Shown here: piece by piece, positions 23,358-44,100 of the stretch | Position numbering within the stretch: position 1 is the stretch's first letter | Layout: each line of letters begins with the position of its first letter | Source of the DNA: Microbacterium oryzae | GTDB lineage: Bacteria; Actinomycetota; Actinomycetes; Actinomycetales; Microbacteriaceae | DNA: 64,000 nucleotides | Direction of reading: 5' to 3' | NCBI RefSeq assembly: GCF_009735645.1 | Contig: NZ_CP032550.1 | Span: forward strand, 558,001-622,000 | Notes under the pieces: model-generated | Told to the model about the DNA's origin: nothing | The model's input: only the letters and a program-made list of their open reading frames with translations | Databases searched by the model: none | Program-made: the position numbers and the translations under genes

Positions 23358-23363
23358 GCGGAT

Positions 23364-23392
23364 TTCACCGCTCCGACACCGTCGTGTAAGCT
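23364..23392 (+). promoter_or_regulatory. Promoter of tRNA-Ala
   Basis: TTCACC (23364-23369) and TAAGCT (23387-23392) with a 17-base spacer. The TSS would fall near 23399, about 31 bases before the mature tRNA. A perfect 9-base hairpin TTGTCCGGG/CCCGGACAA (23400-23424) fills the leader. Confidence 0.6.
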
Positions 23393-23429
23393 AAAGGAGT
23401 TGTCCGGGGCTTCTACCCGGACAACATCT

Positions 23430-23505
23430 GGGCCTGTGGCGCAGCTGGTAGCGCACCTGCATGGCATGCAGGGGGTCAGGGGTTCGAGTCCCCTCAGGTC
23501 CACCA
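23430..23505 (+). tRNA. tRNA-Ala (anticodon GGC)
   Basis: Complete cloverleaf of 76 bases: acceptor GGGCCTG/CAGGTCC (one G-T pair), D arm GCGC-AGCTGGTA-GCGC, anticodon stem CCTGC/GCAGG with loop ATGGCAT (anticodon GGC at loop positions 34-36), T arm GGGGTTCGAGTCCCC, discriminator A and an encoded CCA. It reads GCC/GCT alanine codons. A hairpin and T-run follow immediately. The 3' end borders an accessory segment, so it is a possible integration site, though I find no second copy of its 3' end in the window. Confidence 0.98.
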
Positions 23506-23509
23506 TCAG

Positions 23510-23535
23510 AACCCCCGCTTCGGCGGGGGTTTTCT
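23510..23535 (+). terminator. Intrinsic terminator of tRNA-Ala
   Basis: AACCCCCGC (23510-23518), TTCG loop, GCGGGGGTT (23523-23531), then TTTCTCG. It begins 5 bases after the tRNA CCA end. Confidence 0.9.
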
Positions 23536-23833
23536 CGTTTCGGGGCATGCTGGGCTGAGGTTTAGCGAGAGCGAGATCGCGCCGGCCGCGCGTCGGTCGC
23601 ATCTCACCTCAAGCACGGTCCGCGAACGCAGTGGCGTTGCGGACTCAGCGCTGAGGATCCGTGCGCACTCAGGGAACTCATCGTGCGCGGTTCCGTGTCG
23701 GCCAGCCAACCCCTCGTGCGAGTCGATCCGATCGACTCCGCCGTGTCGGCTATTCTCAGGGCTGAGAGGCCCCGGGGCGACATCTCATCACGTCACGTCA
23801 TGCATTGAGACTTGAGGCCGAGGGTGGGGACCT
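23532..23833. other. Non-coding boundary region
   Basis: About 300 bases between the tRNA-Ala terminator and the next gene. No conserved ORF, RNA gene or repeat of the tRNA end is seen. Composition shifts to lower GC toward the right. The segment marks the border between the core run and accessory DNA. A promoter for the downstream membrane-protein gene must lie here, but no convincing box pair is visible. Confidence 0.5.
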
Positions 23834-26410
23834 ATGACCGCGTCGCGTGCCGAGGAGAGCCGAGCGTTCAGAGACACTCTGCCGTCGATAACTGCTGTCG
23901 TGCTCAAGGGCATCGCTTTGCTGATCGGTGCGGTACTCATCGTCGCGGGCACGGGAGTCGTGTCGGCGTTCGCATCTTGGCGCTTGGCACCGCTGTCCGC
24001 GAGCGTCGGCGACGACGCCGCGGCCGGAATCGCCAATGGCATGGATCGCTTGGCGATGGTCTCGGTCGACGTCGGGACGACGGTGGACGTGCAGCTCGAC
24101 CTTGAGGTCGACAGCGACGACCCCGTTCTCGAGGATTCCGCGCAACGCGCGCTGCTCGAAAGCCCGTTCCTGATCTTGAGCGCGACGGGCAACGTCGAAC
24201 TCGACAGCGCGGGCGGGTTCGTGGATCTCCGTCCGACCGCGATCACAACCACAACGACCTCTGACTCCGCGGTGCTGTCGCTGCGCCTTGTCTCCGATGA
24301 ACTCGACCCGGCGACCGGTCCGTACATCCTGCGCTACACCGCACCCTTCTCCTCCGAGGCTCACGTCGTGCTTCACACCAGCGATGAGTGGCTCGTCACG
24401 AGCGCACTGCCACGCACCCTCATCGAAGAGCAGACGGACTCCTCGGCGACGAGCGTCCGACTCCCATCTAATTCCATCGATCAAGAGGTCCAGTTCGGAT
24501 TCAGCGCCAGCTCTGTTCTGGCCGGGGACTGGCGCCAGGCGTCGGGCACCGGTCACTCCGTGGATGCGACCGGAGCGGCGGCACTGTTCTGGACGTTCTT
24601 CGCCTGGGCAGGTTTCTACCTGTGGCTCTTGCGGGACAGGAGAGGGCGCTCCGCCATTCGCGGATACGTCCCGACCGCTTGGAAAGACCTCGGTCCGCTG
24701 ATCGGCGCGCTGGCGTTGTTCAGCCTCGCCCGGCTTCTCGGAGAAGTCGGCAACTGGCTCGCCAGCTGGCAGCGCTCTGTGCCGACGGATCGAGTGCCCA
24801 CCGATGCTGAGGAGCTCATGCTGCTCCTCGGCCGGGGAGCCCCGCCTGTGGCGATTTTCACGCTTGCTTTCGCATGGGCTTGGAGCCTCATCTTTCGACG
24901 GCGCCAAGCTCGGGTTGCCTCACGCTGGTGGGCGATCGGCATCGCTCTGGCCTGCGCAGCCACCACAGCGACGATCCTTCTCGTGCTCCTGGCGACGCCG
25001 CTCGAGTGGGATATCGGCAGCTCGACATCGTCCCCGTCCTTGAGCCGCGCGGTTTTCGTGGCGGCCGTCGGGTCGCTCGTTATCGGCGCTGGCCTCGTGA
25101 TCAAGACGATGTCTGGCAGGTACGCAGTCACCGGCGCTTTCGCGACCGTGGTCTTGGGGATGGCCTTCGCAGGGCTCTCCTCGGTGTATCGGATTGAGTG
25201 GGTCGGTGTGGCGACCCACGTGCTCGTGGTATTCGTCGTGGTGTTCGCACTTTGCGCGCTGGTCAACGCCGTGGCGTGCAGCATCGGCAGCGCCGACCGC
25301 GTCGTTCGCTTGTGGTCGATGCTGGCGACCGCCGCGATCGTCGCGGTCACCACCGGGCCACGAGTCTTCGCTGCCTATGATTCGGTCGGTCTGTCCGAGG
25401 CGAGCTCGCTGCTGTATCTCTTTGTCGACCCGATCCTGATCGCCCTCTCGACGCTCCTCGTAGTCGGCGTGACGCGCGTGCGTCCGGAGCTTCCCGCCTG
25501 GACGTACCGTGCGTTGTTCTTCATTGCCGCGGTGTTCTTCTTCCGATTCTCGACCTTTGCGGCGATCCCGCTCTCGCTCGTCATCGGTTGTGTGCTGCTG
25601 CGAACGGTACTCCTGCGCCGCGACGCCACGAGCCGTTGGTTCCTCCGCAGTGAGCCCGCTCTCGCCTCGTCGGTTCGGGATTTCATCCGAGACGTCGGCA
25701 GGCGGAGGATGGACCGCGACTTCGCGGATGGGCTGCGCAAGAAGGTCGCCAAGGGCGACGTACCCAGCGACGACCTCGACAAGACGAAAGAAGCTATCGC
25801 TCGCGTCCACTACGAACCGGTCGCCATGAACTCTGCTGCGATGAACGCCGGCGGCATCCCGGGCGGAGCCCTGCGTCGAGCCGCGTTTGGCGCCGCCGTA
25901 GCAACCGTGGCCGGCGCACCGTTCGCGCTCGACTCGATCAGCTACATCCTGGGTGTAGCTGACGACGCCAACGGGCCGTTCGTTCTGGTCGCCCTCCTCG
26001 GGGCGCTTCTGGGGCTGCGTTTTCCCCTCTACGGCTTCGCATTCGGGTTCCTTTTCCCTGCTCTGCGCGGAAACCGCGGCCTGACCAAAGCCCTCGTCGC
26101 CGCGATGGTCCTGGTCATCACCGAAGCCATCGTGCTGCTCATTCCGTTCGCGTGGGATGCGAGCCTGCAGAGCACCCTGCTGCTGCGCGTGGTGCAGTTG
26201 CTCACGGTGTTCTTAGCGCTCGGATTCGCGTTCGACCTTCGATCTCTCAAGTCCGCAGGCCTGGGCCTCGATCGCGTGGGCGACGTGTACAGCGTGAACC
26301 GATTGGTCGTATGGAGCTCGGGACTGCTCGTCGCGGCCGCTGCTGCGTTCGCCACTTCATTGCTCGACACCGCGGCGGGAAGCCTCCTCGCACTCATCAC
26401 GGGTCGCTAG
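23834..26410 (+). CDS. Large polytopic membrane protein of unknown function
   Basis: Predicted 858-residue integral membrane protein. An N-terminal helix (residues ~20-48) is followed by a ~190-residue probably extracytoplasmic beta-rich domain (50-245), then about ten hydrophobic helices to ~600. A cytosolic charged loop (~610-670, RRRMDRDFADGLRKKVAKGDVPSDDLDKTKEAI) precedes four or five more helices. The layout recalls large DUF6185-type actinobacterial membrane proteins, but that is tentative. Wobble positions contain far more A/T than neighbours (TTG, TCT, GTA codons), pointing to acquisition by transfer. No catalytic motif or partner gene is visible. ATG 23834 follows GGGTGGGGA. Confidence 0.7.
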   Translation: MTASRAEESRAFRDTLPSITAVVLKGIALLIGAVLIVAGTGVVSAFASWRLAPLSASVGDDAAAGIANGMDRLAMVSVDVGTTVDVQLDLEVDSDDPVLEDSAQRALLESPFLILSATGNVELDSAGGFVDLRPTAITTTTTSDSAVLSLRLVSDELDPATGPYILRYTAPFSSEAHVVLHTSDEWLVTSALPRTLIEEQTDSSATSVRLPSNSIDQEVQFGFSASSVLAGDWRQASGTGHSVDATGAAALFWTFFAWAGFYLWLLRDRRGRSAIRGYVPTAWKDLGPLIGALALFSLARLLGEVGNWLASWQRSVPTDRVPTDAEELMLLLGRGAPPVAIFTLAFAWAWSLIFRRRQARVASRWWAIGIALACAATTATILLVLLATPLEWDIGSSTSSPSLSRAVFVAAVGSLVIGAGLVIKTMSGRYAVTGAFATVVLGMAFAGLSSVYRIEWVGVATHVLVVFVVVFALCALVNAVACSIGSADRVVRLWSMLATAAIVAVTTGPRVFAAYDSVGLSEASSLLYLFVDPILIALSTLLVVGVTRVRPELPAWTYRALFFIAAVFFFRFSTFAAIPLSLVIGCVLLRTVLLRRDATSRWFLRSEPALASSVRDFIRDVGRRRMDRDFADGLRKKVAKGDVPSDDLDKTKEAIARVHYEPVAMNSAAMNAGGIPGGALRRAAFGAAVATVAGAPFALDSISYILGVADDANGPFVLVALLGALLGLRFPLYGFAFGFLFPALRGNRGLTKALVAAMVLVITEAIVLLIPFAWDASLQSTLLLRVVQLLTVFLALGFAFDLRSLKSAGLGLDRVGDVYSVNRLVVWSSGLLVAAAAAFATSLLDTAAGSLLALITGR

Positions 26411-26690
26411 TGCCCGTATGTTGTCGGCGGCGCTCGAAAAGTGAACACTCAACGATCGGATAGTGATCACTTGAAAGGAATGTGCTCTGATTCGCGGGCT
26501 CGTTGCGGAGCGCGTGTCGAAGGCGGCGATCGCGAAGCGGCTGGCGGTGTCGCGAACGACGGTCTAAGCGGCACCGAAGACCAGGAGGGCCTTACCCTCC
26601 AGGGTCGGGTCCGCGACCACCGAGTGCTTGATTCTCCTCTTGCCGACGTCGCATCGGCCGTTATATCGACAGTATTGGGACTGATATCAG
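26411..26690 (+). pseudogene. Transposase N-terminal fragment (IS remnant)
   Basis: Translation from about 26488 reads IRGLVAERVSKAAIAKRLAV then SRTTV and a stop at 26566. This is the N-terminal helix-turn-helix of an IS21/IS30-like transposase, cut off after ~30 residues. Just before it, 26440-26475 has short repeated motifs (GTGAACAC, GTGATCAC) that resemble the multiple binding sites of IS21-type ends. The rest of the element is missing; 26570-26690 shows no ORF. It is a degraded insertion sequence next to a decayed gene. Confidence 0.55.
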
Positions 26691-28010
26691 ACCGGGATGG
26701 TCCGCGCGTCCTTAAGGTCACTCTCGAGCTCGGCCGATACCCCAGGCATGTGCTGAAGCACGACGTTCAGCGACATGACGGCCGCTTCCGGCGCTGACGC
26801 GTCCAGAGGCAGACCGGGAAATAGCGTTGTGGCACGTCCGAAACCGCCTGCCACTTGGTTGCATCCTTAGCCACCTCGCCGACCGGCGAGTCCATGGTGA
26901 CTTCAGCTGCGGGGCGATCCGTACCGGGAGTAGCCGGGTTCGAGGCGCGGCAACCCTCCGACCACGCGACGATGCCAGTCGGCGACGGCGCCGAGCGCGT
27001 GATGGTCGAGCGATGTCATGCCGTTGGCGTTTACGGTACCGTCCGGAAGAACGGAGTCCCAGCGCTCCCATATCGTGGTCGCCCATCGTTACGGAGTAGA
27101 GGAAGGACAAGCCCGCCTCCTCGAGGACGAGGGAGTGCGCGGTGTCGCTATGGTCGGTGCTACTCAGCGCCTCGGCGACCAGCCGGGTTCCGGCGAAGCC
27201 CGTGGAGATCCGGTATCCGCGCTTGGCGACGATGTCCGCGAGCCGATCGCCTGCCTTCCGCAACTGCTCGTCGAAGAGGGTTCCGAAGGCGTTCGCGAGG
27301 ACGTACGCCGTCGCGGATGCATTGACGAGCCTGCCCAATGCCGTGATGTACTCGCGGCGGAAGGCGGCCAGCACGCGCGCGGCGAGAGCGGAGAAGTCGG
27401 CGGCATCCTCCTCCTGTCCCAGCAGCTCGGCGGTGGCCGCCATCTCGCGGGTGGTCTTGCATAGGAAAGCGGTCGCGACCAGATGCGGATGAGTCTTCGC
27501 GGCGGCGAGGTTGCTTGCCGGGGCGTCAGGGTCCAGCCAGTCGCCGAGCTGGAAGCCGCTGCTCCACAGCCCAGCGTCATCGAGGAGGTCCGACACCCGG
27601 CGGATGAGGGAAGTCATGGAGCCGTCGCTGTCGCGGAGGATGGCGAGATCCCCGTACTCCTGGTACGGCGTCCAGGAGAGGCTGACCGCGACATCGTTCC
27701 AGAGCGCTGTCGGGGACGATGGCTGGGACAGGGCGTCCGGCACCACTCAGGCGACAAAGCCCTTCTTGGCCTGCTCCGCGGCGAGGTCCTGCAGCGACGA
27801 CGTGAGCACGCCGCACGTCATACAGGTAGGCGGCGGGGGCCGGATGCGTTGATGTCGCCGGTCCATCCGAGCCGTTCGTCGCGCTGAGGGCAGTCGGTCG
27901 CGACTCCCACGAAGTTGTCGCGCATCGACCAGACGACGTTCGCGTGCAGCTGCGTCAGACGCGGGTGCGAGGTCTCGAACCAGCCTGTGCGGACCATGAC
28001 TGCTGGGGGC
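26690..28010 (-). pseudogene. Decayed GH78 alpha-L-rhamnosidase
   Basis: Pieces of one gene in shifting frames. Near 28000-27855: TGWFETSHPRLTQLHANVVW and NFVGVATDCPQRDERLGWTG, the GH78 active-site region. A frameshift then leads to LQDLAAEQAKKGFV, an in-frame TGA at 27749-27747, and a long stretch to ~27095 (VVPDALSQ, SWTPYQEYGD, GFQLGDWLDPDAPASNLAAA). A further shift at ~27093 continues with IWERWDSVLPDGTV and MTSLDHHALGAVADW, followed by a stop. The N-terminal domains are absent. At least three lesions make it non-functional. An intact copy would remove rhamnose from plant glycosides. Confidence 0.8.
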
Positions 28011-28064
28011 GTGCAGCAATCATCACTGGTGACGATGATGCAGGGCTTCCGCGGATCAGGACGG

Positions 28065-28886
28065 TCACGGGATCGTGATGACGAGGACCTCGGCCGTCGC
28101 CGTCGCCGGGTTGGTGAAGCGGGGATCGGGGAGGACCATGTGCTGGTGCACCGTCCCGAGCGAGAGCAGCTGAGGGCGGAACTGCGGCACGTCGCCGCAG
28201 AACGTGAATCGGCAGCCGGGTGCCGCGATGCGCACGATCTCGTCGCGTGCGGCATCCGCCGATCCGTTCATCGAGAAGGGGCTGTCGCGCAGGCAGATGT
28301 TCGCGACCGAGTGATCCGCGATGGTCGAGGTGAGCGGACGGGGCGGACCGAGCACCGCGCCCGTGGTGAAGTCCTCGAATCCCAGATAGTCGGTCTCGTG
28401 CTCACCGGAGATGTTGATGCGTCGTCCCGGCAGCGGGTTCACCGGAGTGCCGAAGTGGTTCACTCGCCCGCCCGAACCGGGCGCGGAGAAGCCGGATGTC
28501 GGACAGAGCGAATGGTCGTGCGGTGCGCCGAGCACGGTCGACGACACGAACTCGTCCATGGCGGAGGACTGGTTCTCGAAGACCTCCATCTCCTCGTCGA
28601 GCGCCTGGATCGTGCGCTTGCCGACGATGCGGTTCGGGGTGACCTCTCCGGGCGCCAGGATGCCGCGCGCATCCTTGAAATCGAACACCGCCTGCGCGGT
28701 CGCCGCGCCGAACTTGCCGTCGATGACGAGGAACATCTGGCCATCGCTCAGCAGGCTCAGCGCGATCTGGATGCAGGCCACGTGCGAGCCGTCCGCGCCT
28801 TGGAAGATGTGCGCGGCGTCGTCGACGAGACACGCGTCCAAGCGCGTGTCGGGGGGATCGGTGAAGAGACGGGATGCGAGTCCCAT
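28065..28886 (-). CDS. Peptidoglycan-binding-like domain protein (cluster ORF C)
   Basis: Predicted 273-residue protein, last gene of a three-gene cluster. Residues ~30-95 (IQIALSLLSDGQMFLVIDGKFGAATAQAV, VGKRTIQALDEE) match the PG_binding_1 repeat that binds cell-wall or other glycans. The remaining two-thirds has no recognised domain and ends in a beta-rich stretch. No signal peptide or lipobox is visible, so export, if any, is non-classical. ATG 28886 is chosen over ATG 28895 because the perfect AAGGAGG (28902-28896) abuts the latter but is 9 bases from the former. It is 61 bases downstream of ORF B. Confidence 0.65.
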   Translation of the reverse strand: MGLASRLFTDPPDTRLDACLVDDAAHIFQGADGSHVACIQIALSLLSDGQMFLVIDGKFGAATAQAVFDFKDARGILAPGEVTPNRIVGKRTIQALDEEMEVFENQSSAMDEFVSSTVLGAPHDHSLCPTSGFSAPGSGGRVNHFGTPVNPLPGRRINISGEHETDYLGFEDFTTGAVLGPPRPLTSTIADHSVANICLRDSPFSMNGSADAARDEIVRIAAPGCRFTFCGDVPQFRPQLLSLGTVHQHMVLPDPRFTNPATATAEVLVITIP

Positions 28887-28947
28887 GGGAATCATCCTCC
28901 TTGCCGGCTGTCGTCGGCTCTCGTGGGTTTCGAAAGGGCGGGCATGG

Positions 28948-31900
28948 TCAATCGACCCGCACGGCCGCGCGCGGTCGGCCGAACGGATCCACGAGGACGA
29001 CGGCGGCGGCCGCGCCCGCGGGATCGACCGAGAACGACGGCGCCTCGCCGGTGACGGAGCGGTGGGGAGGCGACTCCAGGAGGGCTCCGGACGGGTCGGC
29101 GAGATACACCACCGCCGTGAACGGGCTGCTGCCCGCGGCGACGAGGGGGAGGCCTGTTACCGTGACGGCGATCCCCGTCGCGTCCGGCGCCGAGGTGACG
29201 GCGGGCTCCGGGCCGTCGACGTCGACCGGGATCGGCGCCGACAGCGGACCCCATGGGGAGAGCACCGCATCCGGCTGTGGAGCGGCGCTCGAGAGGTCGG
29301 GGTCGACGACGACGTCGGCACCCGGCACGGTCGTGCGCTCGGGGGCGAAGCGGACGGAGGCGGCGAGTCGCACCCGAGCCCACGTCGGGACCGGGAACCG
29401 AGCGGTGGCCGTGTGCGATCCGTCCGGCTGCGCGATGAGTGAGATGGTGGTGATCTCGGGCCAGTAGTGCGGATCGGTGTCGTCGATCGCCTCGACGATC
29501 CGTGCCTCGATCGCCCCCGGCATCCGGCTGGACATCGAGGAGGGGACGCCGGACACCGTCACGGTCACCGCCACCTCCCGTGCGTCTCCGTCCGCGATCA
29601 CCTCGGCGGTGAGGCGCGGCAGGGGAGGGACGTCGGCGGTCGGGACGGCGAGGTACGTGGGCGCGACAGCCGCGATGTCGGCCTCGACGCCCTCGGCCTT
29701 CTTCCCGTACGCGTCGACGACGCCGGTGACGGGCACGGCCCGGACGAGCACGAGGTCCGTCGTGGCGCTCGGGACGGCGAGCACTCCGGTAGCGACCCCG
29801 CCGACGACCTCGGCGGTCGCCGCGAGCGTGAATCCCGTGCGCGGTGGGCGGGCGGTCACGGCCAGGATCGCGGCGGCCCGGTCCGGTCGCGGATCGGAGC
29901 GGAAGCCGCTGGGCGGCAGACCGACGGCCGCGCGGACCACCTGCTCCGGGGCGGTGTAGAAGCGGTAGAACGCCGCTCCGGGCGTCGCGCGCACGCTGAG
30001 CCGGACCGCGACGTCCGGGGCAGGACCCGGCCGTCCCGTCATCACGAGCCGCGGCGACACGGAGGGCACCGGGAGGGCGCGCGCGTCGGCCGCATGGACG
30101 ACCGCGGTCGGGTTCGGCGCCACCGACGACGTGCCCGCGCCATCCGTCACCCACGCCTCGATGTGCACGATGCGCTCCTCACCGGGGACGGTGGGCGGCG
30201 CCGGATGGTCGTGCGTCACCGCGGCGTGGCCTGTGGTCACCTCCGGCGTCGCGAGGGGGATGTCCGTGCCGTCGACCCGCAGATGCACGGCGCCGAGCGG
30301 AAGGGCTCCCGGCGCCGTCGTCGGGGAGACGACCACCTCGATGTGGATGGTCCCCGGCGAGGCGGGCTGGGTGCCGGCCGCCGGGAGGCGGGCGAAGGTC
30401 GCCCGCAGCACGGGAGGAACCGGCGGGGCCGGGAGGGGCGGCTCCGCGACGACGCGTCCCGGCTCACCCCATCGCCCGATCCAGTCGCCGAGCTGCACCT
30501 CCCACTCCACGGCCCGCGCGTCGGCCGGCGTCGCGACGGGCACACGTCCGCGGAGCACGGCGTCCGTCATCGGCGGCAGGCCGATGGCCGTCGGCTGCGG
30601 CCATCCCGCGAGGAGCGGACGCGCGACGTCCTCGGACGCGCGGTCGTGCATCGTGACGCGCTCGGGGTCGCCGGGCTCCGAGGCGATCTGCACGAACGAG
30701 ACCGGACCGAACGGCGCGGCCCCGCGCAGCGCGACCGTCTGCTCCCAGGCGTCGGTGCGCTGCGGCGCGGCGCCGACGGGCTCGGCCAGGGTCCACGTCG
30801 CCGGGCCCGATCGCACGGGGGAGGGGGCAGGAGGGAGCGCAGGAGAGCCGTCGACGCTGAGCGGCATCGGCAGCTGGACGAGGTCGACGACCCAGCGCGG
30901 CCGCAGCAGCCGGTTCCCGCGTCCGCCGCCGAACGGGTCGAACGGGTCGGATCGGTGCGGGCGGAACTCCGCTGGCCTCGGGATGTCCGCGGCCCGCGCG
31001 CGCAGCGCCTCCAGCGCGCCGGGCGCCTGCGACTCGTAGACCTCCTCCAGACCGGGAGCGCGATGCACGAACACGGGCGCACGGAGGACGATCATGGGGA
31101 CGAGCGCGACGGCCATCGCCAGTCCGCGTTCCCATCCGCGCGGGATGTCGGTGAACAGGCCCTGACGCGCGAGCCAGCGGGCGACGCCCGGGTCGGCCGC
31201 AGCCACGCCGAGCGCCGAGGCGACGGGGTAGCGCAGTGCCTGCGCACCGCCGACCTCCTGCACGACCTCGCCGCGGCGTCCCGCCAGGATGGCCTCGCCC
31301 GCCACCCGGAGCCATCGCCGGATCGCGTCCGCCTCGTCGACCAGCTGAGCGACGCGGGCGACCTCGTCGTCGGCCGTGTACTCGGGCCACGGCTGGCGCG
31401 GCGCGTAGGGCACCGGCCGGTCGGGGGCGGCGCGCAGCACCCGATCCCTCGCCGATTCGAACGCGACGTTCAGCGGGGCGTATGCGCCGCCCATCGCGTC
31501 CGCGGCGTCCGGGTCCAGCGCGGCGATGTCCAGCACGTCGCCGGTCCAGTCCCGCTCGCGCGGGACGGAGCTCGCCCACATCTCGATGACGGTTCCGCGG
31601 CCGGTCACCCGGACCCGGGTGATGTCGCTCGCGGCCACGACGCACATGCCCTGGTCGGGGTCCAGGTCGCGGGCCGTGATCTCGATGTACTCGCCGTTCG
31701 GGGCGGTCCGCTCGGCGACGACGGCGATGCGCAGGCGGCCGTCGGCCTGGACTCCGAACCACCCGGTCATCTGATCGGGCGCGCTGTCGACGGTGAGAAG
31801 CAGATCGTGGTCCTCGTCGACGTCCCAGGGGCCCGTCGTGTCGCGATCCGATCGGACGTCCCGCGACTCGGTGCCGTCGATGGGGGAGTCGCAGACGACG

Positions 31901-32049
31901 ACGGGGCCGGCGGGGAGGACGCCGGCGGGCGGGATGATGCGCCAGTGCACGCCCTCCGGCACGCGGTCGTCACTCGGAACCGGTCGGCCGTGTCGGATGA
32001 GGGCCGCCTCGGCGTACCCCTCGTCATGAACGGCGAGGTAGCTGCTCAC
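28948..32049 (-). CDS. Large beta-rich protein of unknown function (cluster ORF B)
   Basis: Predicted 1033-residue protein starting at GTG 32049 (VSSYLAVHDEGYAEAALIRHG), with AAGGAG 5 bases upstream; its start overlaps the stop of ORF A in GTGA, so the two are coupled. There is no signal peptide or membrane helix. Residues ~1-330 are mixed alpha/beta; ~550-1033 contain several stretches resembling Ig/fibronectin-like beta domains (FRSDPRPDRAAAILAVTARP; VRLAASVRFAPERTTV). Pro/Ala-rich linkers separate blocks. I do not recognise the family. Its size and modular beta structure suggest a structural or binding protein made together with ORF A. Confidence 0.7.
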   Translation of the reverse strand: MSSYLAVHDEGYAEAALIRHGRPVPSDDRVPEGVHWRIIPPAGVLPAGPVVVCDSPIDGTESRDVRSDRDTTGPWDVDEDHDLLLTVDSAPDQMTGWFGVQADGRLRIAVVAERTAPNGEYIEITARDLDPDQGMCVVAASDITRVRVTGRGTVIEMWASSVPRERDWTGDVLDIAALDPDAADAMGGAYAPLNVAFESARDRVLRAAPDRPVPYAPRQPWPEYTADDEVARVAQLVDEADAIRRWLRVAGEAILAGRRGEVVQEVGGAQALRYPVASALGVAAADPGVARWLARQGLFTDIPRGWERGLAMAVALVPMIVLRAPVFVHRAPGLEEVYESQAPGALEALRARAADIPRPAEFRPHRSDPFDPFGGGRGNRLLRPRWVVDLVQLPMPLSVDGSPALPPAPSPVRSGPATWTLAEPVGAAPQRTDAWEQTVALRGAAPFGPVSFVQIASEPGDPERVTMHDRASEDVARPLLAGWPQPTAIGLPPMTDAVLRGRVPVATPADARAVEWEVQLGDWIGRWGEPGRVVAEPPLPAPPVPPVLRATFARLPAAGTQPASPGTIHIEVVVSPTTAPGALPLGAVHLRVDGTDIPLATPEVTTGHAAVTHDHPAPPTVPGEERIVHIEAWVTDGAGTSSVAPNPTAVVHAADARALPVPSVSPRLVMTGRPGPAPDVAVRLSVRATPGAAFYRFYTAPEQVVRAAVGLPPSGFRSDPRPDRAAAILAVTARPPRTGFTLAATAEVVGGVATGVLAVPSATTDLVLVRAVPVTGVVDAYGKKAEGVEADIAAVAPTYLAVPTADVPPLPRLTAEVIADGDAREVAVTVTVSGVPSSMSSRMPGAIEARIVEAIDDTDPHYWPEITTISLIAQPDGSHTATARFPVPTWARVRLAASVRFAPERTTVPGADVVVDPDLSSAAPQPDAVLSPWGPLSAPIPVDVDGPEPAVTSAPDATGIAVTVTGLPLVAAGSSPFTAVVYLADPSGALLESPPHRSVTGEAPSFSVDPAGAAAAVVLVDPFGRPRAAVRVD

Positions 32050-35000
32050 GGCCGGCTCCTTCCCACGATCGCCGACGACGCGAACGCCGGCGCGACGGGC
32101 ACGGTGATCCGCATCCAGAACCCGCTTCCCCGATCCGTCACCCGCAGGCGCAGGGCGCGCGGGGCGGTGGGCGCGATCGGGGTCGCCAAGAGCCAGAGTG
32201 CGCGGGTGCCGGTGCGGTCGCGGCGGCGGATCGGAAGCGGCACGGCGACGGAGTCCGTGCGGAAGTACACGGCCTCCTGAACGTCCATGCGCGCGCCGGC
32301 CTGTCGGACGAGCGGCTCGGACGCCTCCAGCAGCAGGCCGCTGACGGCCCAGGCGCCGTCGGGGAGCCTCGCCCACAGGAGGCTGCTCCGGCCGCGCGAG
32401 GGCGCGCCGCCGGAATCGGGCTCGGGAACGCGCAGCGGCGGGAGATCGAGCGCCGAGATGGCGGCCTCGAGCTCGTCGTCGTCTGTGCTGAGGCCCGCGG
32501 CGAGTGCGGGCGCGGGCGTCACCGGCAGATGCCCGGATGCCGAGGCCGCCGCGATCGCCTTCGTGCTGGTCGAGCGGGTGAATCCAAGCGAGGCGACCAG
32601 TTCCGCGGGCCCGGCGAATGCGCTCGTGACGAAGGTGATCCCGCGCAGCTGCGCGCTCGCCGAGGTCGCCCGCTTCCCCTTCGGCGGCAGCGCGACCGAG
32701 AGGTCGTACGGCGTGCTCGGCTGCAGCGCCGCCGGCCACACCGCCTCCGCCTCTCGAGGAGGAAGGGGACAGGCGGAGGCTGCGCTCGCCGCGGCGACCG
32801 GGTCGGCGAACGGGGGCGCGAGCGCGCCGTAGAGCCCGATGATCTCCGGGCGACGGTAGAGCGGGGGCCCAGGGCGATCGGTCGGCTTGAGGAGCAGCCC
32901 GAGATCGCGACCGTACGTGCTGGCCAGCGCGCGCACGTGCGGAGCGCGGAATCGGGCGGATGGCCGATCCCGCGTGAAGACGAACCGCTCGTGGTCGGCG
33001 ACCGAGTAGCCGACGAGGTAGCGATCGAGGTACTCCACCTTGAAGGTGTCGACCGCGAACGACGCGAGCGGGCCGCCGCCGATCGAGCTCTTCCAGACGG
33101 TGATCGGGGCGGCGCCGGCGGGCGGCACGGGTGCGGTGCGGAAGAACCAGGTGGCGGTGCGGGCGGTGCCGTCCTCGCGGTCGGGCGGTGCGCCGGAACC
33201 GTCGTCCGTGAGCCGTGTCCACGCGAGGGCGACCGACAGTCGATAGCGGGTGCCGGGCGCGAGGACGGTCCTCAGCGCGCTCACGTCCTTGCCGGGCGTC
33301 GCCTCCGTCGCGTCTGCGCCCGCGCTGGCGTTCCGGCCGTCCTCGGCGGCGGCCGCCGCCGCAGCGTCCGCGGAGCTGCAGGCATACAGGCCGATGACGT
33401 CCACGGAGGCCGCCCAGGTGAGGGTCCACGACACCGCGGTGACGCGTCGGCGCGAGGGCAGCTCCAGAATGACGACGGCATCCGCCTCGGTCGCGTCGCC
33501 AGCAGGGGACGGCTCCACGCGGATGCCGGCGACCGCCTCGGTGCCGCCGTCCTCCGTATGGACCGACGCGCGGAGGCTCCGGCGCAGCCGCTCGATCCCG
33601 CGGGGCGCCTCCTGTCCGAGGAGCTGCACGGCCAGGACGAGGTCGCCGGCGTCGGCCGGCTCGTCGAGCAGGATCCGGTACGTCGTCTCGCCGCCCTCGT
33701 ACGGCAGGGCGACCCACCTCGGGGAGCGCGTGCGGAAGGCGCCGACGAAGGACTCGTCCTCGCCCGCTCCGCCCGCCGGCACGGACACCGGCATCTCCTC
33801 GGCGTATCCGATCGGCCCCTCCGACCAATCCACGCTCGACTGACCCCAGGTGGTCTCCCGCGTCGGCGCCTCGATGCGGAAGCCGACGCCATGCGCGAAC
33901 GACGAGAAGGGGGAGAAGGCCGCGAGGCCCCCACGCCGCGCGACGTGCCACGACCCCGACGCGGGCGATCGGCGTGCGTCGACGCCGTAGGTCCACGCCC
34001 AGCCCGCGGAGAACGTGAGACCGCAGAGGCCGACCGCGCCGCGGACGGCGTCCTCCACCGCCGCGCGCTCGCCCGCGTGGACGAACGACAGCCATCGTGC
34101 GCGGGTGAGCAGGGCCAGCTGGCGTGCGGACGAGATCGCGGCTGCGTCGGCGGGGAGGCCGAGAGCGGGCTGCCAGGCGGACCGCGTCAGATCGACGGCG
34201 GCGCCCGCGAGGTCGCCGTCGGCGTCCACAGGTTCGAGCGTCACCGCGGTGAGGCGCCACTCGAAGGTCGTCGTGCCGGCACCGCTCCTGCCTCCGTTGG
34301 TCGCGCCGTTCTCTCCGGGCACGCCGGCCTCGGGAATCGGCGCGATCGGGAAGGTCAGAAGTGGAGTCGTGTCCGTCCACACCGTGGGGGCTGCGGACCA
34401 GCTTGCGGGGGCCGCCGGACCGGCCGGCGCAGGCGCTGCTCCTTCCGCCCCGAGGTTCGGCACGAGCGGGCGCGCGTCGGGGAGCACATGACCGAGGCCG
34501 TCGGCGAGGTCGATGCGCGGCCAGGGCCAGTCGTCGGCCCCCGGCTCGATCGGAGCGGCGGCCGCCGGGTCGACGGCGCCGAGCTCGATGCATCCCTCGA
34601 GCGTCGTGAACCACAGGTCCACCTCCGCGCAGACCCGCAGGTGGAAGTCGAGGCGGCTGTCCGGCCCGATCTGCACCTGCAGCAGCGCGTCGACCCCGAG
34701 CGTGAACGGGCCGATGCCGACCTCGCCCGACAGTCGGCCATCCGCCCACACCATGACCGGCCGCGTGCCGATCGCGGCGATGAGGCTCGTGGAGACGCTC
34801 GCCCACAGCACGCCGCGCACGCCGAAGGTCTTCGAGAAGCCCGCACCGAGCGCGATCGCGAAGCCCTGCGGAGAGATGCTCTGCCCCGCCACGCTCGGGA
34901 TGCCCTCGCCGCTGACCATGAGGAACGCCCATCCGGTCGTCTCGAGCGGGCCGAGACCCGGGAACACACGCGCCTGCAGGGGGCCCGGAGGGCGCGAGGG

Positions 35001-37238
35001 ATGCGCGCCGATCCCCTCGTCGCTGCCCGCGCGCAGATACCACGCGCTCGCATCGCCGAAGGCGTATCGGGCGGCGATGGGCAGGCGCACGTCCACGACG
35101 AACGGCACCGTGTACCGGCCCTCGACGCCGACGAGCAGCTCGCTGCTCGTCGCGGACACGCCGCCGAGGAGCGACAGGCCGGTGCCCGGCGCCACGTCGG
35201 CTCCGCCGGCCTCGAGAGCGGCCATGGTCTGCCGCGCCGCCCGGAACAGCTGCGCGTTGACGCCGAGGCGCAGCGCGAAGTCGGGCACGGTGACGCCGAG
35301 CACGCCGAGGGCGTTGAAGGTCAGCCCGCCGTCGGGCACGGTCCCGATCACGACGCCGGCGCCGATCGTCACCTGACCCTCCGCGACGTCCAGTCCATTC
35401 CACGGCTTCCAGGCGCGCAGCTTCTTCAGGGGATCGGCGGTCTGGCCCGGTTCGGGAGTGAGCGGTGTCATCGCGGCGTTCGCGCCGAACGAGGCGGCGA
35501 TCGAGTACACGCCGAGTCCGGTGGGGCCGAGCGGGATCGCGGCGGGCAGGTCGAGGCCCATCCCGAACGCGTACTGCGTGACGCCGCCCGCCTTTCTCAA
35601 TCCGAAGACGAGGAAGCCGCCGACGTTCAGCGGCACGAGCGTCCCCCAGAGGGAGACCGCGATCCCGTCGTTGCCGACGTCCCCGCCGAGCTCGAATCTC
35701 CCGCCGCCGACGACGACGCCCGGAAGGTCGAGCCGCGCGTCGAAGCCGCGGACGCCGAAGGTCGGCGACCCGCCATCCCAGGTGCCGCGCACGGTCGCGC
35801 CGGAGATCTTCACGGGGCCGAGGTCCATGGCGAACCGCAGGTCGACCTCCACCCAGGTCGATCCGCTACCCGATCGCGTCCCCACGATCTGCAGGATGTC
35901 CTTGGGAATCGCCGGCGTCGTGATCTGCCAGCCGCCCGGATCGACGACGTCGCAGCGCGCCGTGCGGAAGTCGATGTCCAGCGCGCTCGCGGCGTCCGCG
36001 CCGCCGGTCAGCGCGTCGAGGTCAATTGTGGCGGCGATGCCCCGCCATCGCACGCGCATCGGACGGTCGGCATCCATCGAGATCTCCGCGATCCCGAGGT
36101 CCATCGTGGTGAACCGGATCCCGCCGGAGATGTCGAGGGAGACCGCGAGAACTCCGGACGCGGGCGCTGCCTGCAGGGTGACGCTGTCGAGCGCGTAGTC
36201 GCCGCGGGTCGCCACCGCGCCGCCGAGTGCGGACGCGGCGCCGTAGAGGGCGGCGAGCGAGGCCGGGGCCATCGCCCCCAGCTGCGCGGCGATCGCCGGG
36301 CCCAGGACGAACGTGATGCCGAGCGCGATCTCGCCCGGTGAGGTGCCGCCGCCCGACACCAGGCCATCGGGCTGATCGGACTGCGCCGTGACGGCGATGG
36401 TCACCTCGTCGGGTGCCGCCGGAGGTCGCGTGAGGACGGCGCGGACGGTCACCGCGCCCCGGATGGTGGGGCCGGATGCTCCGAGAGGATGGGCGCCCGC
36501 CGGCAGCGTCAGGGCGACGTCGGCGACGGTCGGGACGAGGTCGGACAGCGCGAAGACATCGGGGAGATCGAAGGTCAGCGTGGCGGACACGCGCGGGTCC
36601 GGCTGCGAGAGCGTCACGGTGAGGCTCTGCGCGCCGGGCGCTCCGCTGAGCGCCGTCGTCAGCGCGAGACCGCCGAGCAGCGGCACGGCGGCCGGCAGGA
36701 CGAGGGTCATCTCGGCGAGATCGACGACGTTCTCCACGATCGCGAAGGAGGCCGGAAGAGTCAGACCGAACCCCGCGGGAAGCAGAACGCTTCGGGCGGA
36801 TGGCGTGACGGCGACGTTCTCGAGGGACACCCGGCTCCCGGTCGAAGACAGATGTACGGCCAGCGCGCCGTCGAGATTCACGACGAGGGGCGCGCCGGTC
36901 GTCGTGAAGACCTCGCGGGCGGTCGCTCCCGCGCCCTGGCGCATCACCGTCGCCGTCGCCAGCCCGGGAACAGGCGCGTCGACCCCGGCGACGGCGAGTG
37001 TGAGCTTCGCGCCGTCTCCGCCCTCCTCGGCGAGCGTCCAGTCGAGCGCGGTGCCGGCGGGCAACGAGGCGCCGAGAGCGACAGGCAGCGCCGAGCCGAT
37101 CGTGAGCGCACCTGCGGCGGGCAGCGGCCCGACCGGCCCGGGCACCGGATCGAGGCGCTCCAGCAGCGTCGCCACCGACGCGGGGATCACGACGCCCTCG
37201 AGCACGCCGAAGTCCTTGAGCAACGAGAACATGGCCAT
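32046..37238 (-). CDS. Giant glycine- and beta-rich protein (cluster ORF A)
   Basis: Predicted 1730-residue protein. ATG 37238 (MAMFSLLKDFGVLEGVVIPA) is preferred: GAGGA lies 7 bases upstream; an upstream ATG at 37387 would add unconserved Arg-rich sequence. Residues ~1-950 are built of short strands with hydrophobic/Gly alternation (LDLPGVVVGGGRFELGGDV; GVGLDL-like turns; RLSGEVGIGPFTLGVDALLQ; CAEVDLWFTTLEGCIELGA), reminiscent of DUF6603-type large beta proteins, a tentative match. Residues ~1000-1730 are Ala/Pro-rich with fibronectin-like segments. No signal peptide, membrane helix or enzymatic motif is visible. Base use is host-like. It is coupled to ORF B. Confidence 0.7.
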   Translation of the reverse strand: MAMFSLLKDFGVLEGVVIPASVATLLERLDPVPGPVGPLPAAGALTIGSALPVALGASLPAGTALDWTLAEEGGDGAKLTLAVAGVDAPVPGLATATVMRQGAGATAREVFTTTGAPLVVNLDGALAVHLSSTGSRVSLENVAVTPSARSVLLPAGFGLTLPASFAIVENVVDLAEMTLVLPAAVPLLGGLALTTALSGAPGAQSLTVTLSQPDPRVSATLTFDLPDVFALSDLVPTVADVALTLPAGAHPLGASGPTIRGAVTVRAVLTRPPAAPDEVTIAVTAQSDQPDGLVSGGGTSPGEIALGITFVLGPAIAAQLGAMAPASLAALYGAASALGGAVATRGDYALDSVTLQAAPASGVLAVSLDISGGIRFTTMDLGIAEISMDADRPMRVRWRGIAATIDLDALTGGADAASALDIDFRTARCDVVDPGGWQITTPAIPKDILQIVGTRSGSGSTWVEVDLRFAMDLGPVKISGATVRGTWDGGSPTFGVRGFDARLDLPGVVVGGGRFELGGDVGNDGIAVSLWGTLVPLNVGGFLVFGLRKAGGVTQYAFGMGLDLPAAIPLGPTGLGVYSIAASFGANAAMTPLTPEPGQTADPLKKLRAWKPWNGLDVAEGQVTIGAGVVIGTVPDGGLTFNALGVLGVTVPDFALRLGVNAQLFRAARQTMAALEAGGADVAPGTGLSLLGGVSATSSELLVGVEGRYTVPFVVDVRLPIAARYAFGDASAWYLRAGSDEGIGAHPSRPPGPLQARVFPGLGPLETTGWAFLMVSGEGIPSVAGQSISPQGFAIALGAGFSKTFGVRGVLWASVSTSLIAAIGTRPVMVWADGRLSGEVGIGPFTLGVDALLQVQIGPDSRLDFHLRVCAEVDLWFTTLEGCIELGAVDPAAAAPIEPGADDWPWPRIDLADGLGHVLPDARPLVPNLGAEGAAPAPAGPAAPASWSAAPTVWTDTTPLLTFPIAPIPEAGVPGENGATNGGRSGAGTTTFEWRLTAVTLEPVDADGDLAGAAVDLTRSAWQPALGLPADAAAISSARQLALLTRARWLSFVHAGERAAVEDAVRGAVGLCGLTFSAGWAWTYGVDARRSPASGSWHVARRGGLAAFSPFSSFAHGVGFRIEAPTRETTWGQSSVDWSEGPIGYAEEMPVSVPAGGAGEDESFVGAFRTRSPRWVALPYEGGETTYRILLDEPADAGDLVLAVQLLGQEAPRGIERLRRSLRASVHTEDGGTEAVAGIRVEPSPAGDATEADAVVILELPSRRRVTAVSWTLTWAASVDVIGLYACSSADAAAAAAAEDGRNASAGADATEATPGKDVSALRTVLAPGTRYRLSVALAWTRLTDDGSGAPPDREDGTARTATWFFRTAPVPPAGAAPITVWKSSIGGGPLASFAVDTFKVEYLDRYLVGYSVADHERFVFTRDRPSARFRAPHVRALASTYGRDLGLLLKPTDRPGPPLYRRPEIIGLYGALAPPFADPVAAASAASACPLPPREAEAVWPAALQPSTPYDLSVALPPKGKRATSASAQLRGITFVTSAFAGPAELVASLGFTRSTSTKAIAAASASGHLPVTPAPALAAGLSTDDDELEAAISALDLPPLRVPEPDSGGAPSRGRSSLLWARLPDGAWAVSGLLLEASEPLVRQAGARMDVQEAVYFRTDSVAVPLPIRRRDRTGTRALWLLATPIAPTAPRALRLRVTDRGSGFWMRITVPVAPAFASSAIVGRSRP

Positions 37239-42428: not shown

Positions 42429-42735
42429 CGGGCGCCTTTCGGGATCGAGAGCGGATGGCGGAGGCGCCGTCCGTTCATGTTCTGCGCGAGCATGCGGGAT
42501 GTCAGTGGACGCGAGACGAGCGGATGGTGAACGTCTGGTTTCGTGTGCCTCTCGCGTGGGTGGCAGATGATCGCGAATCGCAGCGACGTTAGTAATTCGC
42601 TTTACTAGCGGACCACGCCCGAGCCCGGGTGGTCCCCGTTCTGTTCCGTCGGAAGCGCGTCTTTGAGTGCGGGTGGCAGAAGAAATAGCAGCGAAACCTA
42701 TTGCCTTTTTTCTCGAAGAGAAGTACGATGAGGGC
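42429..42735. other. Divergent intergenic region with dyads
   Basis: About 300 bases between the GT4 gene (-) and the HNH gene (+). It holds an AT-rich dyad TAGTAA-N6-TTACTA (42590-42607), directly followed by a GC-rich hairpin GGACCAC/GTGGTCC (42610-42635), and the HNH promoter at 42701-42729. The dyad may be an operator; the GT4 promoter was not located. No ORF with coding character is seen. Confidence 0.5.
42701..42729 (+). promoter_or_regulatory. Promoter giving a leaderless HNH-gene transcript
   Basis: TTGCCT (42701-42706), 17-base T-rich spacer, TACGAT (42724-42729). The expected start point, 7 bases beyond the -10, is the A of the ATG at 42736, so the mRNA would be leaderless, which is common in actinobacteria. 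Confidence 0.6.
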
Positions 42736-44100
42736 ATGTCGAAGGTGACAGGCCCGCTCATCGAGGTCCTCGGCGCTCTGCGAAGCGCGGTGGCAGACCT
42801 CGATGTGGTCGGCTTGGCGCCAGACGACATGGCGGAGCTCACCGACGTGCTCGCGTCCATCCGGCGGGTTGCCGAGGCGGGATTCGCTCCTGTCGCGGGG
42901 GAGATCAGTCGACAGTCGCGGCGCGAGCTGGGGAAGGACTCCTACTCCCGCAAGCGCGGCTTCACCTCCCCCGCTGCGTTGATCTCCGCGGCAACGGGGT
43001 CGAGCACCGCGGACGCCGCCCGGATGATGAAGGTCGGAGAGGCGACCGCGCCCCGGCGGAACCTCGTGGGGGAGGAGCTGCCCGCAAAGCACCCCCATGT
43101 CGCGCAGGCGGTCAAGGCGGGGGTGCTGAGCGTGACCGCGGCGGAGGGGATCGTGAGTCTGCTTGACCGGGTCGCGATCCGCGCCGGCGATGCCGCATGC
43201 GAGGAGATGGAGGCGATCCTCGCCGCACGGGCGCCCGGGCTGACCAGTGACGAGCTGCGTCGGATGCTGCTGGACGCGGAGGCCCGGCTCGATCCGGATG
43301 GGAAGGAACCGCGCGAGCACGAGCGGCGGGACCGGCGGATGCTGGCGTTCCGCACCGAGCGCGACGGATCGGTGTCCCTCACCGGTCGCTTCGATCCGGA
43401 GACCGCCGCCCCGATCGTGACCGCGATCGACGGCATCGTCACCCGCATCATGCGTCGGAACGAGCACCAGGACGACCCGGCGAAGAAGGACGGCCGCACC
43501 CGCATGCAGATGCAGGCGGACATCCTCGCCGACCTCGCGCGCCACGCGCTCGGATGCCGAGCGGTTCCCACCAGGCCGATCACGACGATGGTCGTCCGGA
43601 TGGATTACGACACCTTCCGCGCCGCCCTCGACGAGAACGCCGAGGCCGCAGGGGCGGCGGGGACGGCGCGGATCGACGGGATCGAGCAGCCGATCACCGC
43701 TCGGGCGGTGAGGCGGATGGCCGTGGATGCGCAGATCATCCCCTGCGTCCTCGGCGGAAACAGCGAAGTCCTCGATCTCGGACGTGAGGAGCGCCTGTTC
43801 ACCAAGAAGCAGAAGCTCGCCCTCGCCGAACGAGACGGCGGATGCGCGTTCTGCGGAGCGCCTCCAGGACATACCATCGTGCACCACATCGACTGGTGGT
43901 CTCGCGGCGGCCGCACCGACCTCGACAACGGGATCCTCCTGTGCGTGGCGTGCCACCATCGCATCCACGATGACGGGTGGGAGATCCGCATCGACGGAGT
44001 CGGCAGGAACGCGGTGCCCTGGTTCATCCCACCGCCCTGGCTGGACCACACCCGCACACCCCGCCGCGGCGGCCCCACCCGCTACCGACTCGTCGCGTGA
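42736..44100 (+). CDS. DUF222 domain HNH endonuclease-like protein
   Basis: 454-residue protein with an N-terminal DUF222 domain (residues ~40-330, helical, with GRFDPETAAPIVTAID) and a C-terminal HNH nuclease (~365-415). The HNH has C370 and C373 (CAFCG), VHHIDWWSRGGRTDLDNG and CVACHHRIH, i.e. all ββα-metal residues. The family is abundant and often multicopy in Actinobacteria; 13E12-type repeat proteins of mycobacteria are relatives. Its biological role is unknown, perhaps mobile or defence related. A good promoter abuts the ATG. Confidence 0.9.
   Translation: MSKVTGPLIEVLGALRSAVADLDVVGLAPDDMAELTDVLASIRRVAEAGFAPVAGEISRQSRRELGKDSYSRKRGFTSPAALISAATGSSTADAARMMKVGEATAPRRNLVGEELPAKHPHVAQAVKAGVLSVTAAEGIVSLLDRVAIRAGDAACEEMEAILAARAPGLTSDELRRMLLDAEARLDPDGKEPREHERRDRRMLAFRTERDGSVSLTGRFDPETAAPIVTAIDGIVTRIMRRNEHQDDPAKKDGRTRMQMQADILADLARHALGCRAVPTRPITTMVVRMDYDTFRAALDENAEAAGAAGTARIDGIEQPITARAVRRMAVDAQIIPCVLGGNSEVLDLGREERLFTKKQKLALAERDGGCAFCGAPPGHTIVHHIDWWSRGGRTDLDNGILLCVACHHRIHDDGWEIRIDGVGRNAVPWFIPPPWLDHTRTPRRGGPTRYRLVA

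Follow-up and report, generated by a model that had tools for sequence, protein, structure and literature searches.

We examined if three adjacent minus-strand genes, here called P1, P2 and P3, specify one assembly, and what such an assembly might do. They lie at 28065-37238 of a 64,000-nucleotide stretch of DNA (the window; 558001-622000 of a 3.04 Mb single-contig genome, contig NZ_CP032550.1). A first-pass annotation made from the sequence alone had taken them for a coupled trio of resident genes forming an assembled structure, such as a surface layer or a storage shell, that matched no described system, and had noted a pattern-level resemblance of P1 to DUF6603. The coupling of the first two genes, the DUF6603 link and the lack of a described counterpart were upheld; the membership of P3, the residency of the genes and the shell or surface-layer idea were not. 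P1 and P2 are a conserved, translationally coupled module of giant proteins. Our preferred reading, held with somewhat less than even confidence, is a two-protein assembly whose giant subunit would have a large beta sheet, hydrophobic on one side, for contact with lipid, membrane or its partner.

The gene layout was confirmed from the sequence: three open reading frames (ORFs) on the minus strand, with P1 (32046-37238, 1730 residues) ending in a GTGA overlap (32046-32049) that holds its stop and the GTG start codon of P2 (28948-32049, 1033 residues), and P3 (28065-28886, 273 residues) starting with the ATG at 28886, 61 nt past the P2 stop (276 residues if the alternative start at 28895 is used). 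Twenty loci with a P1-type giant were fetched: the window, Microbacterium oryzae (L002), plasmid pAMI4 of Paracoccus aminophilus (L009), four other Microbacteriaceae (L010-L013), four more actinobacteria (L044-L047) and nine additional genus members (L127-L135); a weak partial hit in genome G1260 (a 130-residue frame) was excluded from this count. A homologous partner gene followed the giant on the same strand in all 20, recognised by the P2 profile in four (the window, L002, L009 and L127) and in the other 16 by a profile built from seven of those partners. The partner start lay -3 to +2 nt from the giant stop in 18 loci and at +17 in L132; in L135 (genome G1253) the giant's reading frame is split and the offset was not measurable. 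The giant of L127 (genome G1258) is also split, its last piece retaining the coupling. These two split giants with a downstream partner may represent degenerating copies, or they could be sequencing errors. The script gene caller, of a crude GC-frame type, missed two P2 genes (window, L002) and the L046 partner; all three were recovered by direct ORF, tblastn or profile search. As the 20 loci come mostly from Microbacteriaceae they are not independent, and the Paracoccus locus is the important outlier among them; coupling, seen in 19 of the 20, is far beyond chance.

The same survey of gene neighbourhoods, which the first-pass annotation had proposed for the whole trio, placed P3 beside the giant pair in only 2/20 loci, and P3 is for this reason counted outside the set, as an optional and occasional passenger. 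Among the contigs listed for P3 homologues only one of 64 (that of M. oryzae) was shared with the P1 or P2 lists; many of the P3 contigs are short, so that only the long ones are informative for this comparison. The N-terminal part of P3 (residues 1-108 including an N-terminal extension, 28563-28886, minus strand) was modelled as a three-helix fold of PG_binding_1 type. It scored 15 bits against PG_binding_1, where the cut-off is 23, and the family (PF01471) is annotated in 6 of the 65 listed P3 homologues according to a precomputed column. The PG_binding_1-like repeat claimed earlier is thus retained as a PG_binding_1-like fold, present as a single domain and not as a repeat. The C-terminal part (residues 122-273, 28068-28523) was modelled as a reduced Rossmann-type fold of the class I S-adenosylmethionine methyltransferases, although in its cofactor loop only G161 is invariant (56-sequence alignment, motif judged by eye), and no methyltransferase was found among the sequence-level PDB matches of P3. 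The P3 profile also matched a chain of solved structure named "Effector protein" (4nso, E 7.2e-6), over the PG-binding-like part only. Modules of the P3 N-terminal type recur with varied C-termini: one with a lytic-transglycosylase-like C-terminus lies by a DUF6603 gene in genome G633, another lies by DUF6603 in G829, and a third was seen in G992 (locus L088, contig C32, 66336-66629) behind a DUF4157-like HELAH segment, adjoining a cluster for an extracellular contractile injection system (eCIS); the domain names of these modules were assigned by eye.

Neither P1 nor P2 gave a match in Pfam, NCBIfam or PHROGs at E≤1, so that P1 did not match DUF6603 (PF20248) itself, a family with no match in the window's own genome. 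The Pfam and NCBIfam searches found no enzyme family in the giants; inspected by eye, they showed no signal peptide or membrane helix, and Pfam found no wall-anchoring domain in them. In the PDB, sequence profiles found no convincing match to P1 (best E 0.31) and none at all to P2. Protein searches found at least 34 P1 relatives including P1 itself, at least 11 P2 relatives and 65 homologues of P3; the P1 and P2 searches scored only candidates sharing most words, and those lists may be incomplete. The closest named relative among the matches listed was for all three proteins M. oryzae. The contigs of 6 of the 11 listed P2 relatives were also in the P1 list, and when genome contigs were scanned with the P2 profile, M. 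oryzae was the single locus returned.

Profile searches connected P1 with more distant giants, and through them with DUF6603. A profile of P1 homologues matched the giant of the Paracoccus plasmid (E 6e-196) and those of the four other Microbacteriaceae (E 1e-61 to 2e-77), and in profile-profile comparison (hhalign) P1 matched the other giants with a probability of 100% and canonical DUF6603 proteins with 94.3% (E 9.5e-8, profile positions 476-902). P2 matched the Paracoccus partner with 97.1% and the other partners with 89.4% (E 2e-6); the weak comparisons were those of the other partners with the Paracoccus partner (7.6%) and of the Paracoccus giant alone with DUF6603 (9.9%). The P1-type giant of L010, from the same bacterial family, bridges the two groups, scoring 46.4 bits against DUF6603 (cut-off 27); four more actinobacterial giants (G787, G772, G755 and G1007) were above the cut-off, and the L011 giant, with 21.2 bits, was under it. 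The DUF6603 resemblance of P1, at first only an impression, was borne out by the hhalign match and by L010, and the P1 core is, as judged by these profiles, detectably remote-homologous to DUF6603. Because P1 itself, the 24 sequences of set A3 (searched at E≤0.1) and the Paracoccus giant all lacked a DUF6603 match though the profile link is present, P1 is on this comparison a divergent relative and not a filed member of the family. Sub-threshold OmpA-like segments, of a wall-binding type, were seen in two P1-type giants (L009 430-8094, E 0.079; P0045, E 0.00093), and they may be another recurrence of wall-binding modules around the P1-type family.

Of 394 genomes sampled within the class, 36 contained DUF6603, and neither DUF6603 nor PF20248 is named in any paper of the literature searched, where no described system matching the pair was found either. 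Sixteen canonical DUF6603 loci (L048-L063) were fetched and the gene stands there likewise among other giant genes: one partner family, mostly of about 1200-1430 residues, occurs in 10 of the 16 and another, of 584-951 residues, in 8 (sizes from the crude gene caller). Homology of P2 with these canonical partners was considered and rejected, no similarity being detectable by profile comparison; since the partner families differ to this extent, there seem to be two or more types of giant partner for DUF6603 proteins.

An AlphaFold2 model of P1 residues 1-1000 placed about 22 antiparallel amphipathic strands in the core with medium confidence. The DUF6603-like core (residues 446-887, 34578-35903, minus strand) rests on this model, on its fold matches and on an amphipathicity test, and is predicted to form a very large antiparallel sheet, hydrophobic on one face. 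Its nearest folds were outer-membrane barrels (LptD, porins and ushers) and apolipoprotein B; SlpA/SDBC cell-surface proteins were also among the matches (E 3.6e-5 to 1.7e-4). Against a viral structure library P1 had three matches at E≤0.001, the best with E 6.3e-6 and the second to a phage tail fibre, all with a template modelling score (TM-score) of about 0.1. Omp85 (PF01103) was absent from the window's genome in a search in which 7 of 14 controls were positive, and there is therefore presumably no outer membrane.

P1-type giants are patchy in distribution. Genome searches with A3, which scored at most two candidates per genome, found them in 11 of 227 genomes at genus level, in 5 of 349 at family level and in 1 of 396 at phylum level, each figure including the window's own genome. 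M. oryzae carries the trio beside the same glycosyltransferase and haem-oxygenase-like genes as the window, whereas all 8 Microbacterium genomes that were fetched lack it beside these common genes (stretches of 18-19.5 kb; eight of 15 other genomes with a glycosyltransferase match, two of them marginal, with one flank only in common). P2 shares 72% identity with the homologue from Polymorphospora, but 50% with the one from its congener M. neungamense. These identities suggest horizontal transfer, although base composition is host-like, as had been claimed: the GC content at third codon positions was 0.906 for P1, 0.909 for P2 and 0.880 for P3, within the range of four neighbouring genes (0.804 to 0.929). 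Given the absence of the trio at the common flank in those relatives and the P2 identities, the genes do not appear to be long resident. No relative of P1 or P3, the two proteins searched, was found in viral contigs or phage records; a plasmid search returned for P1 only the Paracoccus relative, for P3 a partial PG-binding match and for P2 nothing. Beside the trio, a GC-poor stretch (23358-28064; 65.3% versus 71.3%) that is missing at this site in M. oryzae contains an alpha-L-rhamnosidase remnant (26718-28010; PF17389, profile positions 85-304 of 339), whose upstream part continues in another frame as judged by eye. A gene for a DUF222 and HNH endonuclease protein lies at 42667-44100 of the window.

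The reading we prefer takes P1 and P2 as two subunits of one assembly, made together by conserved coupling and probably in a fixed ratio. P1 would supply the DUF6603-like core, produced with no evident export signal in a cell lacking Omp85, and the hydrophobic face of its sheet would have to be shielded, whether by lipid, a target membrane or P2. Being translated as P1 finishes, P2 might keep P1 soluble and provide the outer, target-binding parts of the complex. The target of the assembly would then be lipid or membrane, reached either within the cell, where it would carry or coat lipid, or following non-classical release; P3 would be an optional accessory joining a wall-binding-type module to a reduced methyltransferase-like domain.

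Several observations weigh against this. The P1 model had a predicted template modelling score of 0.46, and the five models a mean predicted local distance difference test score of 63.7 to 75.0; its top 15 Foldseek matches had TM-scores of 0.14-0.22 and a root-mean-square deviation (rmsd) of 20-28 Å, and a second aligner, covering mainly residues 468-887, gave an rmsd of 7-14 Å. With TM-scores so low and deviations so high, neither closure nor a barrel shape of the sheet is established; AlphaFold2 may be biased toward closed barrels, and soluble beta sandwiches, too, contain amphipathic strands. The beta-rich domains of P2 are a sequence impression (P2 is without a Pfam domain; a C-terminal DPFGR motif was seen in its alignment). 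As 2 of the 20 giants are split between frames, the module is not always intact. Lipid metabolism or export was not a regular neighbour among 36 flanking genes of the other loci, whose families are mixed, NlpC/P60 and T2SSF being represented by two genes each (best 25 of 49 matches).

The alternative that survives best, though we consider it rather unlikely, is a toxin-like complex used in antagonism, in which P1 would insert into membranes, P2 would act as receptor-binding protein or chaperone, the adjacent PG_binding_1 proteins would be variable wall-acting or enzymatic cargo, and release would be by lysis or a delivery machine. The patchy presence of the giants in genus and family, the identities suggestive of transfer, the recurrence of the P3-type N-terminal module with different C-termini (G633, G829 and G992), the match of its PG-binding-like part to the 4nso chain and the sub-threshold OmpA-like segments within two giants would all fit such a complex; Pfam and NCBIfam, however, found no toxin domain in P1 or P2, no immunity gene was recognised by eye, P3 is missing from 18 of the 20 loci, and M. 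oryzae has the trio with no gene for Pvc16_N, an eCIS marker considered below.

A purely structural role for the assembly, be it as a surface layer, a scaffold in the cytoplasm or a shell, without membrane or lipid action and with the sheet packed on P2 or on itself, is in our judgement unlikely. Coupled, giant, beta-rich proteins in which no enzyme family was found would suit it, and the SlpA/SDBC matches agree with it, but these are accompanied by other barrels and may involve the barrel part only; the lack of a visible signal peptide and of a Pfam wall anchor, and the patchy presence, speak against it. For the surface layer or storage shell first proposed there was no clear positive evidence, and the P1 model suggests instead a sheet like that of a membrane barrel or apolipoprotein B.

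A link to an eCIS was taken up because P3-type modules occur beside eCIS genes and DUF4157, which passages of PMC8213781 and PMC11297309 describe as a marker of eCIS toxins. The window's own genome contains an eCIS-like gene run (G000 C1, about 976000-1002700; L119, L108, L109) with sheath and Pvc16_N genes identified by profile and tube, ATPase, PAAR and baseplate genes by eye, but some 400 kb away from P1-P2-P3. Carriage of Pvc16_N differed between genomes with DUF6603 or a giant (18 of 41) and hand-picked others (7 of 39; Fisher p 0.016), a rough comparison since 10 of the 39 (5 of the 11 in group f5) were not visibly listed as DUF6603-tested and several were picked from an earlier hit list; in f5, which has many of both, the figures were 7/7 versus 6/11 (p 0.10). 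The eCIS cluster adjoining the P3-type module in G992 was, apart from Pvc16_N, judged by eye. As M. oryzae has the trio without Pvc16_N, which was found in 3 of 73 other Microbacterium genomes tested and was absent from 4 of the 5 family-level giant carriers, the link is for the P1-P2 pair without support, largely refuted and set aside, for P3 a weak candidate, and overall very improbable.

These results give a divergent branch of DUF6603, a family without mention in the literature searched, a tightly coupled partner. They also offer a first structural idea for the branch: a large amphipathic sheet, predicted to be barrel-like although the bacterium has no Omp85. If the sheet does bind lipid or membrane, it would represent a barrel-type or lipoprotein-type machine beyond the outer-membrane world. 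The further generalisation, which we think doubtful, would be a class, not yet named, of giant assemblies with two subunits, encoded in actinobacteria and by a proteobacterial plasmid. Its DUF6603-type subunit would form a sheet like that of an outer-membrane barrel or apolipoprotein B, made with no export signal in bacteria that have no outer membrane, for carrying or coating lipid or for entering the membranes of other cells.

Compared with known systems, P3 resembles PG_binding_1 at its N-terminus, below the cut-off, and peptidoglycan binding is putative; its C-terminus keeps, by eye, one invariant glycine of the class I methyltransferase cofactor loop. As for the DUF4157 effectors of eCIS, the G992 module is like them in standing behind a DUF4157-like segment, whereas P3 is without such a segment and lies far from the eCIS run, and M. 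oryzae is without Pvc16_N. P1 shares with outer-membrane beta barrels a predicted long up-and-down amphipathic sheet and its best fold matches, and differs in having no visible signal peptide, a host genome without Omp85 and low TM-scores. To the lipid-coating sheet of apolipoprotein B no sequence relation was found, and the likeness is that of the P1 model. With regard to the DUF6603 superfamily, P1 lacks the Pfam match and the canonical operons have partner families unlike P2, whereas the cores align and the canonical members, too, stand in runs of giant genes.

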